Of a stretch of DNA of 64,000 nucleotides, positions 922-57,249 are shown piece by piece. A model generated the notes under the pieces. That model searched no databases. It was not told where the DNA came from and saw only the letters and a program-made list of their open reading frames with translations. This DNA is from Elusimicrobiota bacterium (GTDB lineage: Bacteria; Elusimicrobiota; Elusimicrobia; Elusimicrobiales; UBA9959): positions 1-64,000 of the forward strand of contig JAPLKI010000020.1 of NCBI GenBank assembly GCA_026388155.1, written 5' to 3'. The first letter of the stretch is position 1. Every line of letters begins with the position of its first letter. A program made the translations under genes and the position numbers.

Positions 922-1148
922 TTAGCCCGAATCCTGCAGTTCACTAGGGTTTCCATTGGTAAATCGGGTGAACAAAAAAATGCAGGATTCCCCGCGGTAG
1001 CGGGTTGCTGACCAAGCGCTATGCGCGCCAGGTCGGCGAGGGCGTATGCCGCGCGAAGCGCACCTTGAGCTCTGCGAAAGGGAAAGTTTCAACTGAAACT
1101 TTCAGGCTAGTTAATGTAAAACACTTTCAAATGCAGGATTCGGGTTAA
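922..1148. repeat. TTAACCCGAA-type interspersed repeat, copy A (227 bp)
   Basis: Bounded by inverted ends: left TTAGCCCGAATCCTGCA (922-938), right TGCAGGATTCGGGTTAA (1132-1148). Near the right end lies a near-perfect palindrome, AAGTTTCAACTGAAACTT (1084-1101). The interior contains AACAAAAA-ATGCA and a segment (about 970-1110) closely matched at 53735-53859. It fills the gap between two convergent genes, and the TAA stop of the minus-strand CDF gene falls in its terminal TTAA. No transposase is present. Confidence 0.8.
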
Positions 1149-14091: not shown

Positions 14092-14182
14092 TTATCTCGA
14101 AAGTTGCAATTAGAAACGTTTTTCATTGAGAAGTTTTTGAATAAATTTTCCATTGCTATTTTCGGGGTAAGAACCTCATTCC

Positions 14183-14228
14183 CTATTCGCTATTCGCTAT
14201 CTTGCTATTCGCTGCTGTTGTGCTATTC
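14183..14228. repeat. Heptamer-period repeat (CGCTATT words)
   Basis: Words CCCTATT, CGCTATT, CGCTATC, TGCTATT in near-tandem order with a seven-base period. It lies between the FabG-like and tandem TetR genes. Related blocks are at 32096-32134 and 51546-51589. Confidence 0.65.
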
Positions 14229-14232
14229 TCTG

Positions 14233-14261
14233 CCGAAAACTTCAATTGAAGTTTTCGGGTT
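14233..14261. repeat. TTAACCCGAA-type repeat, hairpin-only copy G
   Basis: Perfect palindrome CCGAAAACTTC-AATT-GAAGTTTTCGG followed by GTTTATAT. It is the terminal hairpin of the repeat family with its own arm sequence, placed directly after the fabG-like gene, whose stop codon overlaps the end (TAA within ATATAAACCCG on the minus strand). Confidence 0.65.
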
Positions 14262-15004
14262 TATATTACCAATCCTCCGTCCACCGAGATCACCTGCCCG
14301 GTGATGAAAGAGGACTCGTCATTGGCCAGGAAAAAATAGGAATTGGCTATATCTTCCGGCTTGCCCAGGCGCTTCAGCGGGGTCTTTTCGCTTATGGAAG
14401 TAAGCACTTTTTCCGGCACGGTTTCCAGCATTTCGGTCATGGTAAATCCCGGCGCCACGGCGTTCACGCGTATGCCGTCGCGGCCCATTTCCTTGGCCCA
14501 GGTTTTTGTCAGGCCGATTATGCCGAACTTTGAGGCGGCATAGTTGCTCTGGCCCATATTGCCATAAATGCCCACCACGGAAGAGGTGTTAATGATAGTT
14601 CCGCTCTTGCGCGCTTTCATATGGGGCGCCACCGCCTTGGTGCAGAGGAAGGCTCCTTTAAGATTCACGTTCAGCACCAGGTCCCAGTCCTTTTCCTCCA
14701 TTTTGTGGAGCATGGCGTCGCGTGTGATGCCGGCGTTGTTTATAAGCGCATCCACGCTGCCCATTTTTTCTATGACCTGTTTTATCGCGGCGTCCACCGA
14801 TTCGCCCGAAGTAACGTCAACCTTGAAGTAAGCCACATTCTCCGCGCCGTATTTTTCACCCAATTCGCGCGCGGTGTTCGCGAGCATCTGCTCATTTACG
14901 TCGAACAAAGCCACTTTCCATTCCCCGGATCTAAGGAACCTCTCAGCGCCCGCGCGCCCCAGCCCCCTGGCTCCGCCCGTTATAACAGCGTTTTTCTTTT
15001 CCAT
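14261..15004 (-). CDS. fabG: Short-chain dehydrogenase, 3-oxoacyl-[ACP]/acetoacetyl-CoA reductase type
   Basis: 247 residues, the standard length. NADP-binding TGGARGLGRAGA at the N-terminus, NNAG at about residue 90, and the catalytic set S (NTSSVVG), Y and K (SNYAASK) are intact; the C-terminus VDGGLVI is typical of FabG and PhaB. It reduces a 3-oxoacyl thioester with NADPH. It leads a three-gene minus-strand group with the tandem TetR and the KASIII-like gene, so it may act on an acyl chain made or moved by that variant synthase rather than in housekeeping fatty-acid synthesis. Confidence 0.85.
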   Translation of the reverse strand: MEKKNAVITGGARGLGRAGAERFLRSGEWKVALFDVNEQMLANTARELGEKYGAENVAYFKVDVTSGESVDAAIKQVIEKMGSVDALINNAGITRDAMLHKMEEKDWDLVLNVNLKGAFLCTKAVAPHMKARKSGTIINTSSVVGIYGNMGQSNYAASKFGIIGLTKTWAKEMGRDGIRVNAVAPGFTMTEMLETVPEKVLTSISEKTPLKRLGKPEDIANSYFFLANDESSFITGQVISVDGGLVI

Positions 15005-19994: not shown

Positions 19995-20033
19995 CAGCAC
20001 GCCGTTTTTTGTGCTGGACTATTGCCAGGCATA

Positions 20034-20130
20034 AGTGCAGTATTCGGGTTAAGGCTGCCCGGGCAAAGCCGGTTATTCAGGAGCCGCTGACTTTTTCAAT
20101 ACCTGCGTAAGTGCCGTAGCAGGGGCTATG
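20034..20130. repeat. Partial TTAACCCGAA-type repeat, copy E
   Basis: Contains TGCAGTATTCGGGTTAA (20036-20052), the right end of the family, then AATACCTGCGTAAGTGCCGTA (20099-20119), differing by one base from 53689-53709 in copy B. The order is rearranged relative to the full copies. It lies between two convergent genes. Confidence 0.55.
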
Positions 20131-24022: not shown

Positions 24023-24068
24023 AACCCCGCACTTTTCCCCCAAGAGGGCCGAAGTGCGGGGTTTTATT
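24023..24068 (+). terminator. Intrinsic terminator after the cyclophilin gene
   Basis: AACCCCGCACTT (24023-24034) pairs with AAGTGCGGGGTT (24052-24063), followed by TTATTTT. A closely similar hairpin in the opposite orientation is at about 46284-46321. Confidence 0.88.
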
Positions 24069-29183: not shown

Positions 29184-29246
29184 TTAACCCGAATCCTGCA
29201 ATTGGAGTCGTCCGCCCAGGGCGGACAACTGAAGAATTCGGATTAA
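29184..29246. repeat. TTAACCCGAA-type repeat, minimal copy D (63 bp)
   Basis: Left end TTAACCCGAATCCTGCAATT, a central hairpin GTCCGCCC-AGGGCGGAC, right end AACTGAAGAATTCGGATTAA. It lies 11 bases after the CsgG-like stop codon and could end transcription or stabilise the 3' end. Confidence 0.7.
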
Positions 29247-30896: not shown

Positions 30897-30939
30897 AAAT
30901 CCCGCTTGATATAAGAGCAGCGGTTTAGTCGTCTTACAC

Positions 30940-31011
30940 CCTTCAGCCTTCAGCCTTCAGCCTTCAGCCTTCAGCCTTCAGCCTTCAGCCTTCAGCCTTC
31001 AGCCTTCAGCC
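30940..31011. repeat. Perfect heptamer tandem repeat, (CTTCAGC) about 10 copies
   Basis: About ten uninterrupted copies of CTTCAGC. The minus-strand thioesterase gene ends inside it: read as GGCTGAA units, the array supplies the last codons and the TGA stop at 30992. Copy-number change by slippage would change the C-terminus by frame. Confidence 0.9.
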
Positions 31012-31435
31012 TTTCCCCCGGTTCCCAGGCGCTGAAAGCCTGTACAACTTCCTGCGGTATGCGGCTTGGCCGGCCCGTACTATAATTTATCCACACCCAT
31101 ACTGTGCGCCCGCAGCAGACCATTTTGCCGTCGGAACGCCTGTAAATTTCATAACGACGCTCGGATGAGGCGCGTTCAGCCGTTTCCACCCAGGTGCGCA
31201 TGATCACCGTTTCCTCCGGTTTTACCGGCAGCAGGTAGTCTATTTCGTGGCGGCGTATCACCCAGCCCGAACCCATGGCGAGCATGCGCTCCACACCCCA
31301 GCCCGCGGCTTTGGAATGCGCGGTCGCCGCGTCCAGGCACCAGAGCAGATAGACCATATTGTTCACATGCCCCAGCCCGTCTATCTCATCGGGCGTTACT
31401 TTACGCTCAAATTCCAGCACTTTTGAAATAGCCAT
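30992..31435 (-). CDS. Hotdog-fold acyl-CoA thioesterase (YbgC/4HBT type)
   Basis: 147 residues. The catalytic segment DEIDGLGHVNNMVYLLW has the Asp and His-Asn typical of 4-hydroxybenzoyl-CoA thioesterase-like proteins. The rest follows the hotdog pattern (EIDYLLPVKPEETVIMRTW, RRYEIYR). It hydrolyses an acyl-CoA; chain length unknown. The C-terminus GERLKAEG is written partly by the heptamer array. Confidence 0.85.
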   Translation of the reverse strand: MAISKVLEFERKVTPDEIDGLGHVNNMVYLLWCLDAATAHSKAAGWGVERMLAMGSGWVIRRHEIDYLLPVKPEETVIMRTWVETAERASSERRYEIYRRSDGKMVCCGRTVWVWINYSTGRPSRIPQEVVQAFSAWEPGERLKAEG

Positions 31436-43364: not shown

Positions 43365-44336
43365 TTACTCTCTCGGAACCAGCACTATCTCGATGCGCCG
43401 GTTAAGGGCTTTGTGCTCCGGCGTGTCATTGGGCGCAATGGGCTTGTATTCGCCGTAGCCCGCCGCAACAAGCCGCTGGGGATCGACCTTGGCGACATCC
43501 TGAAGGTAACGGGCCACGGCCGTGGCCCGTGCGGTTGAAAGTTCCCAGTTGGTCGGATATTTGTTTTTCAGATCGGAGCTTATGGGAACATTGTCGGTAT
43601 GGCCTTCTATGCGGATGTACTTGTCCTTGACGCTGTTTAAAACGGAACCGATCCGCTCAAGGACCTTCTTACCGTCGGCTTTGACCACCGCAAGGCCCGA
43701 GGCGAAAAGTATGCGGTCCACCATATTGACGGTGAGCTTGCCCTTGAGCTGGGTTATAGTTATTTCTCCGTTCGCTATCTCGGACTTCAGGTTTGCGGCG
43801 AGGTCCTCGTAGTTCTTTTTTACCTGGGCCAGTTCGGTTTCTTTGGCGGCCTCAGCCGCTTTCTTTTCCTCCAGCGCTTTATCCCGGGCCTGGGCCAGAG
43901 CGAGCGCCTCCTGGTCCTTGGTTTGTGTTACCCGGGCCAGTTCGGCCTCCTTGGCCAGTTCCACCGTTTTCCTTTCCTCCAGCGCCTTATCCCGGGCCTG
44001 GGTCAGAGCGAGCGCTTCCTGTTCCTTGGCGGAGAGTTTCTGCGAAAGGTCGTCCCTTTCTTGTATAAGTTCGGAGACTTTCTTTGACAGCTCGCCTTTT
44101 TTGGCGTCCAGGGAGTCCTGGAAGTCTTTGTTGGATTTATGAAGCGCGTCTATCTGCGCGCGGAGGTCCTGATCGGTTTTTTGCGACGTATCCTTAAAAG
44201 CGTTGTAATCGTCTTTCAGGCCGGCTATTTCTTTGTGCGCGGAAGAAAGCTCGCTCTCTTTTACCTTATATTTATTGGCTGATACGCATCCCGACAAAAG
44301 GATCAAACCGGAAAAGGCAACAATATGTTTTTTCAT
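43365..44336 (-). CDS. OmpA-domain lipoprotein with coiled coil
   Basis: About 323 residues; ATG 44336 follows AGGAGGAG. Lipobox IVAFSGLILLSGC. Residues about 25-205 are a long coiled coil that contains a 37-residue tandem duplication (AKEQEALALTQARDKALEER and TKDQEALALAQARDKALEEK). The C-terminal OmpA-like domain binds peptidoglycan: IEGHTDNVPISSDLK, NWELSTARATAVARYL, AAGYGEYKPIAPND, NRRIEIVLV. It should tether the outer membrane to the wall across the periplasm, with the coil as spacer. Confidence 0.9.
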   Translation of the reverse strand: MKKHIVAFSGLILLSGCVSANKYKVKESELSSAHKEIAGLKDDYNAFKDTSQKTDQDLRAQIDALHKSNKDFQDSLDAKKGELSKKVSELIQERDDLSQKLSAKEQEALALTQARDKALEERKTVELAKEAELARVTQTKDQEALALAQARDKALEEKKAAEAAKETELAQVKKNYEDLAANLKSEIANGEITITQLKGKLTVNMVDRILFASGLAVVKADGKKVLERIGSVLNSVKDKYIRIEGHTDNVPISSDLKNKYPTNWELSTARATAVARYLQDVAKVDPQRLVAAGYGEYKPIAPNDTPEHKALNRRIEIVLVPRE

Positions 44337-46093: not shown

Positions 46094-46377
46094 AACCACC
46101 TCTCCTAAAAAACGCTTCGGGACTATTTAAAAAGCAAGAGCGACAGTCCGCAACAGCACACTCAGCCGGCAAAAAAGTTACGCATATAGTATAGATGGTT
46201 TTTTATTCCATTGCCAGTCCCTGTGGGAAAAACAGGCAAGCCGGCCTATGCCGGACACAGAGATCGCGGCGTCCGGCCGGCCCCCCCCGTACTTCGGCCT
46301 TTTTTAGGAAAAAGTGCGGGGCCTGCGCAATTGCGCCGGAAAGACATTAAAAGCCTGTCTTTTGATAAAATCTGAGC
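46094..46377. other. Gene-free divergent region with a terminator-like hairpin
   Basis: Divergent spacer. CCCCGTACTT (about 46285-46294) pairs with AAGTGCGGGG (46312-46321), a module like the terminator at 24023-24068 in reverse orientation but without a T-run. TTTTGATAAAAT just before the PAP2 gene could hold its -10 element. Nothing else is seen. Confidence 0.5.
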
Positions 46378-49135: not shown

Positions 49136-49342
49136 TTAACCCGAAAGTTGCAGTTGACTGCAACTTTCGCCCCAGAGGGGCCGGTGCAAACAAATGCGGA
49201 ACGAACAAAAATATGCATTCAATAGTTGCACTATGGCCGTAAAAGGGCGGGGCAACCCAGCTCTTTTGCCCAATGATTTACGAATCATTGGGCAAAAGAG
49301 CTGCCCTTCGGGCGAATCCTTCAACTGAAGGATTCGGGTTAA
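49136..49342. repeat. TTAACCCGAA-type interspersed repeat, copy C (207 bp)
   Basis: Left end TTAACCCGAAAGTTGCAGTT, right end palindrome ATCCTTCAACTGAAGGAT then TCGGGTTAA. The left end itself forms a hairpin (CGAAAGTTGCAG / CTGCAACTTTCG). In the middle, 49259-49278 and 49283-49302 are perfect 20-base complementary arms with a 4-base loop. The terminal TTAA supplies the stop codon of the minus-strand beta-lactamase-fold gene. Between convergent genes. Confidence 0.8.
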
Positions 49343-50253
49343 ATATCGCCGGCAACCGGGGGATGATGCGCTTTTATGAAAGCGTCCACTTCTTTGGTGA
49401 TGGCGTGAATTATCGGTTTGGCTCCCGAATTCGGCAGCCTGACGAATATAACAAGAATATATGTCCTGCCGGGGGCTTTTATTATCGCGGCATCGTTCCT
49501 TGCCGCCGAGAGTTCCCCCGTTTTACCGGCATAAGACGCTTCCGCCGGAAGCGCTTCTTTTATCAGCTCGGTGTCCATTTGCCCTGAAAGGGTGGCGTAC
49601 ATGACTTTTGACGCGTTGGCGCTTACCAGCTTTTCAGAGGCTATAAGGCTGAGTATGGTCGCCGCGTCGTACGGCGGCATTGAATTCCAGCCCGTGGCTT
49701 CAGGATCCTGAACATCCGCCCCGCTTGATAATTTATGGCGTATCCCGGTATTTTCCAGCCCGAGTTTTTTCATAAAGTCGTTTACCACGTTCCGGTTCAG
49801 CAGGTCTATGAGGGTATTGGTGGCTATGTTGTCGCTGCGCCGCACCATTACTTCCACGACATCACGGACTTTCCACTGCTGTCCGGGTTTCATAGAGGGA
49901 TACGGATCGTTGTCCGGGAACCAGGTGCCGGTGTAATTTTTTTTGTTTATGGTGATCAGCTGATCAAAAGACAATCCGTCTTCCTTCGCGGCCCGGTATG
50001 CGCCGGCAAGCAGGGTAAGTTTTATCACGCTGGCAACCGGAACAATGTCGCGGTCGAAGTATCCCCCCCTCACCGGATCAGCCTGGTCCGTCAGATCCAC
50101 CAGGGATACGTTGGCTTTTGTCATATCCACTTTCACCGCCAGTTTTTTTAAAAAAGAATCTATTTCTTCTCCGGTAAGCGCGGAGGCGGAGGCCGCCATA
50201 CTCAAACTTAAGGAAACACATGTAAACAAAACCAGTGAACGTATTCTTTTCAT
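49339..50253 (-). CDS. Class A beta-lactamase-fold serine hydrolase
   Basis: About 304 residues from ATG 50253 (GGAG upstream; signal RSLVLFTCVSLSLSMAASAS). Penicillin-binding fold motifs: nucleophile SVIK in VASVIKLTLLAG, SDN in VRRSDNIATNTLI and KTG in YAGKTGELSAARND. The region expected to hold the deacylating Glu reads DPEATGWNSMPPYD, so a Glu is present but the motif differs from E-x-x-L-N. It could be a beta-lactamase or a DD-peptidase-like wall enzyme; resistance should not be assumed. Confidence 0.8.
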   Translation of the reverse strand: MKRIRSLVLFTCVSLSLSMAASASALTGEEIDSFLKKLAVKVDMTKANVSLVDLTDQADPVRGGYFDRDIVPVASVIKLTLLAGAYRAAKEDGLSFDQLITINKKNYTGTWFPDNDPYPSMKPGQQWKVRDVVEVMVRRSDNIATNTLIDLLNRNVVNDFMKKLGLENTGIRHKLSSGADVQDPEATGWNSMPPYDAATILSLIASEKLVSANASKVMYATLSGQMDTELIKEALPAEASYAGKTGELSAARNDAAIIKAPGRTYILVIFVRLPNSGAKPIIHAITKEVDAFIKAHHPPVAGDI

Positions 50254-50454
50254 AATAAATTCTCCAATTGCCTCGTCTGAGTAAAAGTATACATGTTTTG
50301 TGAACCTGACGCTTAGGCCCAAGGTCCTATTCTAAATCCGGGCCTCACAATATTTATCCCGAAATATTTATCCTTGATAAAGATCTCCATACTGGCCGTC
50401 TGGCTGGCAGGATAAAGCTACCCAAGAGCGTTAAAATTTTATACCGTATTCAGT

Positions 50455-52444: not shown

Positions 52445-52514
52445 AAGCCCTTAGCAGGCGCTTCATTTGTGTCTAAAGTTTCCGAACGCCATAAAAAAGT
52501 TGCAAAGAAAACCT

Positions 52515-52637
52515 CTATCGCTATAATAACAAAAAGCGGCGGTATTTTTATCAATTTTTCCATAGTTCCCCCACCGGGCGGGCGGGAACTTTTCTAAATT
52601 TCAGAAAAACGCTCTCTTTTTGTTATTATAGCGGTAG
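52515..52637. repeat. 123-bp inverted-repeat element in a 323-base gap
   Basis: Arms 52515-52536 and 52616-52637 are complementary at 21 of 22 bases (CTATCGCTATAATAACAAAA and its partner). Each arm contains TATAAT in one orientation. Between them AGTTCCC-N13-GGGAACT forms a second hairpin. The rest of 52445-52767 shows nothing else. It may be a MITE or a paired promoter/operator structure. Confidence 0.55.
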
Positions 52638-52767
52638 GGCTGTGTTTTAGCGACTTTCAAGCGAAGAAATGGGGGGAGTCTTCTCGGCGGATACACGCGG
52701 TAAGCGTTCTTATATTTACCACAGATAGACTGCAAATTCGATAACCTTAAAAAAAACAGGATAACTT

Positions 52768-53626: not shown

Positions 53627-53859
53627 TTAACCTGAATCCTGCAGTTCAAGGTTATTCTCATTTGAAAACATAAGGAACAAAAATATGCAATACCTGCGTA
53701 GGTGCCGTATAGGGGCCTATGGCCATCAGACGGCCAGGATTCCCCGCTTTGCGGGTCGCAAATCAAGCGCATTGCGCGCAGAATTTGCGAGGGTGTATGC
53801 CGCGCGCAGCGCACCTGAGCTCCGCGAAGGGAAAAATTCAATTGAATTTTTCAGGTTAA
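53627..53859. repeat. TTAACCCGAA-type interspersed repeat, copy B (233 bp)
   Basis: Left end TTAACCTGAATCCTGCAGTT; right palindrome AAATTCAATTGAATTT then TCAGGTTAA. The interior matches copy A (ATTCCCCGC, GCATTGCGCGC, GTATGCCGCGC, GAGCTC) and copy E, and contains 53713-53735, identical to 16-38. Mosaic of shared modules; small frames inside are not genes. Confidence 0.8.
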
Positions 53860-56881: not shown

Positions 56882-57249
56882 TTAGCTGCTAGTGACCCTG
56901 GCGGTCACTGAAACGGCTTTTTAACCTCCGGTCCTAACGTGAACCGAACGGGTGTCCCGCCAGTCGCGGACAACGCCATAGGTAGGGGAAACCGCAGTGC
57001 GGTGTCCCCTGTGACTAATTTCACGGAAGGGGTGCCGCCGCGACAGGCCCCGCACCTTGGCCCTTGGAAAAAGTGCGCGACAGGCCAGAGGCACTATGGG
57101 AAAATCCCCCGGAAAGGGTCCCGCCAAAAGTCGGGTCGTTTTTATGAAATTTTGCAAAGTCCCCCCGCGCCCTTAGGTTTTCCGGGTGTGTAAGAGGATG
57201 GAGAGTTGTTTGTTTTAGTCCGAATTCTTCAGTTGGCCGTCTGAGGCAT
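56882..57249. other. Gene-free region with direct repeat and partial interspersed repeat
   Basis: Holds the right copy of the flanking direct repeat (56893-56952) and, at its far end, TAGTCCGAATTCTTCAGTTG (about 57215-57234), the reverse complement of the right end of repeat copy D. The GC-rich middle (about 56950-57180) has no credible gene. Confidence 0.5.
56893..56952 (+). repeat. Flanking direct repeat, right copy
   Basis: TGACCCTGGCGGTCACTGAA ... AACGTGAACCGAACGGG, about 2.8 kb from its partner at 54089-54147. Confidence 0.75.

Follow-up and report, generated by a model that had tools for sequence, protein, structure and literature searches.

The interspersed repeats of the window (the whole 64,000-nt stretch of DNA analysed here) are best read as small gene-less passenger transposons with ends common to an IS1380-type jumping gene of Elusimicrobia. 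On sequence comparison, we consider it likely that they are MITE-like, non-autonomous transposons served by an IS1380-family DDE transposase, with hairpin arms exchanged between copies. The original prediction described a dispersed family whose right-end hairpin arms vary between copies while remaining complementary; all palindromes and copies that it named were found in the sequence, and the observation is correct, yet understates what the sequence contains. The family adds an IS1380-linked group of short elements to Elusimicrobia, and a search of the open-access literature returned no description of such elements, an absence that is no proof of novelty.

Ends, target sites and the probable IS1380 partner

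Type I elements are about 180 nt long, start with CCYGAA and finish with TTCRGG, and carry the terminal inverted repeat CCYGAA-N5-CAGTT at their start and, inverted, at their other end. They are surrounded by 4-bp direct repeats of consensus YTAR, which were exact in 36 of 66 copies; 10,000 re-pairings of left with right flanks gave 13.9 exact copies on average and never more than 23. The pattern mis-registers some rows, which lowers the observed count rather than raising it. At eight shifted registers used as controls, at most one copy had identical flanks at any of them. The TTAA that the original prediction placed in the constant outer part of the palindrome is a target-site duplication and lies outside the element sequence. 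A simple TTAA-specific inserter, considered at first, gave way to YTAR after this duplication test.

In the window's own 3.36-Mb genome, the string TTAACCYGAAT has 24 exact matches (reversed control, 0) and a 189-nt consensus has 58. The loose motif TTAACCCGAA with up to two mismatches is not enriched in the window (63 occurrences against 68 by chance), so that the evidence rests on the long matches and not on the short end. A covariance model of type I (R1) had matches in 41 of the 59 genomes from the window's family, covering 8 of 13 genera, with 37 matches in the window's genome and up to 44 copies per genome elsewhere, while a DNA search of 24 genomes of the sister family found none.

Searches of the window's genome with PF01609 and PF13701 gave no IS5-type or IS1380 transposase passing the thresholds used, and the only trace of an IS1380 gene there was a 5' remnant adjoining one element copy (L038). 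IS1380 genes were found in related genomes, with further loci coming from a scan of bacterial genomes. The relatives of the IS belong to Elusimicrobiales or Elusimicrobia MAGs, which makes an Elusimicrobiales-type genome probable for the window too. The partner transposase passes the NCBIfam IS1380 model NF033539.1 above its cut-off (E=2.3e-72 and 3.6e-75) and also matches PF13701. An IS5-type partner was rejected, given the lack of a PF01609 match in the element's own genome and a partner elsewhere that fits IS1380 far better than IS5/IS701. The sole insertion sequence (IS) with both ends (L192) has an intact length of 1541 bp, ends CCTGAATTCCCCAGTT and CCTGAAAAGCGCAGTT, and outside flanks TTAG/CTAA, which are not an exact duplication; right ends at three further loci (L193, L195 and L191) read CCTGAAAAATGCAGTT (two of these loci) and CCTGAAAACTTCAGTT. 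Two of the three N5 variants of the IS (AAATG and AACTT, at the right ends of both) also occur as N5 variants of the elements.

The IS and the elements are alike in their terminal CCTGAA-N5-CAGTT and YTAR flanks, and differ in that the IS encodes a transposase and the elements do not. Because type I ends match those of IS1380 insertion sequences in relatives, we regard the repeats as probable non-autonomous, MITE-like elements mobilised by an IS1380-type transposase, and from the ends and the duplication together we infer movement in trans. The transposase would recognise the CCYGAA-N5-CAGTT end, excise the element and insert it at YTAR, duplicating four bases. IS1380 elements generally produce a 4-bp target duplication. 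For a member from Paracoccus, 5 bp are given (PMC3281130). Common to element and IS is a terminal pattern of about 16 nt, beyond which no shared sequence was seen by eye; a match of ends with no match of the interior falls short of showing that the elements descend from the IS.

Like bacterial MITEs, the elements are short, have no space for a transposase gene, carry terminal inverted repeats and a target-site duplication, and occur in many copies scattered mainly in intergenic DNA. They differ from them in having an interior made of hairpins abutting in a row, in ends that are each a hairpin, in several interiors that share one set of ends, and in the lack of visible IS-common sequence past the terminal pattern. 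A further comparison is with piggyBac, whose trees take IS1380 transposases as outgroup (PMC10813416) and which passes through hairpin DNA intermediates (PMC7351741). Its target duplication is likewise mostly of the TTAA type, but piggyBac is eukaryotic and its hairpins are transient reaction intermediates rather than inverted repeats within the element.

Copies in the window and a nested insertion

The full type I element of the window, copy A, occupies positions 926-1106 of the plus strand (181 nt; R1 E=1.7e-52). Its target-site duplications are TTAG at 922-925, assigned from the sequence and the direct-repeat statistics over 66 copies, and CTAG at 1107-1110, assigned from the nested-insertion analysis. 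The fold and the 101-copy alignment place on the same strand a left hairpin H1 at 929-990, with the left terminal repeat GAATCCTGCA as its outer arm (97.8% of cells paired over 101 copies), H2 at 991-1004, H3 at 1006-1038, whose outer stem is very variable and compensated, and the right hairpin H7 (GAAAGTTTCAACTGAAACTTTC) at 1082-1103, with the right terminal repeat as its outer arm.

The stretch 922-1148, originally taken as one copy, is present in the sequence but comprises two elements, one nested in the other. The second is a single-hairpin element on the minus strand that is split by copy A into remnants at 891-921 (with TTAG at 891-894) and 1107-1148 (with TTAA at 1145-1148), and the sequence TTCGGGTTAA at 1139-1148 belongs to it and not to copy A. 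With 926-1106 and one of the flank copies excised, the remaining 73 nt form a single hairpin, which aligned to H1 at a score of 51, compared with a maximum of 38.5 in 500 shuffles. The full element was therefore inserted into a smaller one-hairpin element and, since removing it restores the hairpin element, the nested insertion serves as a stand-in for an empty site. Orthologous empty sites were sought in relatives and no clean one was found, the flanks being alignable over one gene only. In one relative (G002), the counterpart of the gene at 1145-2080, downstream of copy A, terminates without the element, which is a presence/absence difference only. The TTAA flanks at 1145-1148 and 49339-49342 provide the stop codon of the adjoining minus-strand reading frames 1145-2080 and 49339-50322.

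Copy B (53627-53859, plus strand) is a type I element by sequence and R1 match, with TTAA on either side. A GTAG repeat of 48 nt interrupts it at about 53688-53735, boundaries that were set by comparison with other copies. Copy C (49136-49342) has the same ends and TTAA on either side, but sequence comparison makes it a different, type II element with another interior, on the minus strand. A short element at 29184-29246 (plus strand) has the same ends and about 55 nt between its TTAA repeats. The partial copy originally noted at 14233-14261 is there, and is in fact the right end of a degraded full-length copy at 14092-14263 (plus strand; R1 E=1e-9) with right hairpin GAAAACTTCAATTGAAGTTTTC. 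Left-end remnants lie at 20030-20052 (minus strand) and 57213-57239 (plus strand). The window also contains an inverted repeat at 52504-52648 with 44-nt arms that are 75% complementary and parts of which match elsewhere in the genome, and tandem repeats of 14 nt at 30937-31027 and of 108 nt at 43807-44022.

Hairpins and the maintenance of complementary arms

The copies examined fold into a row of abutting hairpins (copy A, folded as single-stranded DNA, has z = -5.7), and each end is a hairpin with the terminal repeat as outer arm and its complement as inner arm. In a MAFFT alignment of 40 copies, 94.2% of cells pair and 199 two-sided changes were counted against 62.5 when shuffled, with pairing falling to 27-44% when the partners were slid. 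The 101-copy alignment gave 94.0% of cells paired and 555 two-sided cells against 199 +- 21 shuffled. One of the 40 sequences supplied the structure, to which the 101 copies were then fitted, so both alignments lean towards it, a minor concern given the gap between observed and shuffled values. Since copies inherit and share their arms, there were fewer independent events than compensated cells. In H7, 98.9% of cells pair over the 101 copies despite at least eight discrete arm types. The arms of the right hairpin thus differ and stay complementary, as originally predicted, and the larger set of copies did not turn up arms varying freely of each other; covariation in this hairpin and in most of the element is far above the shuffled and slid controls. 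In the outermost stem, which would pair the left end with the right end, the variable C/T position lacks a pairing partner in 34 of the 101 copies, so that what is kept is not a closed global fold.

Covariation of hairpin arms is usually taken to prove a functional fold, and the original prediction argued in this way for selection on the folded form. That step is not borne out by close copies, which differ by two or three compensated pairs together and rarely by one, with a few arms recurring. Stepwise compensation under selection should proceed mainly by single pairs, whereas whole-hairpin exchange or template switching should give block changes. Among copy pairs differing by at most 8% outside H7, 45 differ within H7 by compensated pairs only (one pair in 3, two pairs in 15 and three pairs in 27), although these copy pairs overlap and represent far fewer than 45 separate events. 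In one such pair (L138 and L133), the sequence outside H7 is 0.7% different, while H7 itself differs by three compensated pairs. On a tree built without H7, arm type changes at least 30 times, compared with 59.6 with shuffled labels, mainly by two or three pairs and to and fro among few types; this tree is weak, being based on about 150 nt and 96 non-independent copies. Of 26 stem changes private to one copy in the tightest clusters, 25 are one-sided. A first count of private changes (27 compensated against 70 one-sided) was set aside, since many 'private' changes are arm types of other copies.

Cassette exchange or template switching fits these data better than stepwise compensation, and the block changes, recurring arms and one-sided cluster changes jointly speak for whole-hairpin exchange between copies. 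Most likely, recombination between copies moves the right hairpin as a whole. New perfect arms would arise by template switching or similar, older arm-to-arm copying, and selection for a foldable DNA end may or may not accompany this copying. Template switching is a documented route by which perfect stems are created and maintained (PMC8794818). With its many copies, several arm types, near-identical pairs and blockwise paired changes, the family can help to distinguish fold selection from arm copying and cassette exchange.

Selection on the fold is possible alongside exchange, for example acting on source copies. As a rival reading, in which hairpins extruded as cruciforms or formed in single-stranded DNA aid transposition and source copies with complementary arms spread, we hold it possible but unlikely. 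It would account for arms that are perfect across at least eight types, for the one-sided recent changes, as if the constraint acted on source lineages and not on each copy, and for the lower rate of change at stem than at unpaired sites in clusters (0.0085 versus 0.021, a threshold-dependent ratio that became 0.0092/0.026 and 0.0078/0.010 at the other two of three distance thresholds). It also draws on the three IS right ends that were folded: in these the terminal repeat is not within a hairpin and N5 differs without a compensating inner arm, which makes the terminal hairpin peculiar to the short elements. It is opposed by the predominance of two- to three-pair blocks between close copies and by the poorly kept outermost stem, and IS1380-type elements are not known to require hairpin ends. 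A doubtful variant of the exchange itself is that the end hairpins are cassettes through which a single element body could be served by different IS1380 transposases, as near-identical bodies do carry different right hairpins and the N5 variants AAATG and AACTT are common to the right ends of IS and elements; if so, the hairpin form would belong to the recognition or copying of short elements.

The original prediction left the folded form as DNA or RNA; we lean slightly to DNA, since it is the hairpins that make up the ends of the element. Selection on a transcribed, folded RNA, for example one that shields or ends the transcripts of neighbouring genes, seems improbable to us. G-T outnumbers A-C among stem cells (53 versus 29, p = 0.011, optimistic because copies are non-independent), but wobble pairs equal just some 1.4% of standard pairs, a small control set of tRNAs at the same loci gave 7 of 191 with no A-C, and the youngest clusters have 7 G-T against 6 A-C. 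Copies are slightly in excess downstream of genes (86 versus 63, p = 0.07), and slightly more of them are sense than antisense (18 versus 10, p = 0.18), both p-values being optimistic and dependent on rough gene calls; of two gene-calling passes the second, codon-scored one was used, the first having given 27 sense against 12 antisense, and there is no clear orientation bias relative to genes. An Rfam search of the window matched no family beyond tRNAs.

REP-like repeats and RAYT genes

The original prediction also proposed a RAYT-type transposase with matching ends, by which the repeats would be REP/REPIN elements. The window's genome does encode four Y1_Tnp (RAYT-like) genes (L055-L058; G000 C21, C20, C16 and C22), two with extra helix-turn-helix matches, and the elements resemble REPs as dispersed, intergenic palindromes that form hairpins. 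None of the four genes has the element ends within about 1.5 kb on each side, however, and the elements combine IS1380-like ends with a 4-bp YTAR duplication and lack a GTAG-type tag at their ends. Nor would the RAYT class be expected to leave a 4-bp target duplication. With a separate GTAG-bearing repeat inside some copies being the better REP candidate, we disfavour a RAYT/REP origin as highly improbable, and retain IS1380-type mobilisation.

This GTAG repeat is 46-48 nt long with an imperfect palindrome (AATACCTGCGTAGGTGCCGT...CAGACGGCC) and occurs at 53688-53735 in the window and at four other loci (L030, L035, L041 and L018). Within element copies it is found at several different positions; its borders appear to be precise, no duplication accompanies it, and it resembles a mobile REP-like unit. 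In one genome (G025), an element bearing it has itself multiplied, with 27 exact matches of its core. A palindromic repeat reading CCCCGCACTTTT...AAAGTGCGGGG, or close to it, is present at 24025-24061 and 46285-46321 in the window and at L044, L042 and L023, and substitutes for hairpins within some element copies. Another small palindromic repeat, AGTCGCGG...GCCAG...CACA, is inserted in the loops of element hairpins at three loci (L027, L046 and L020).
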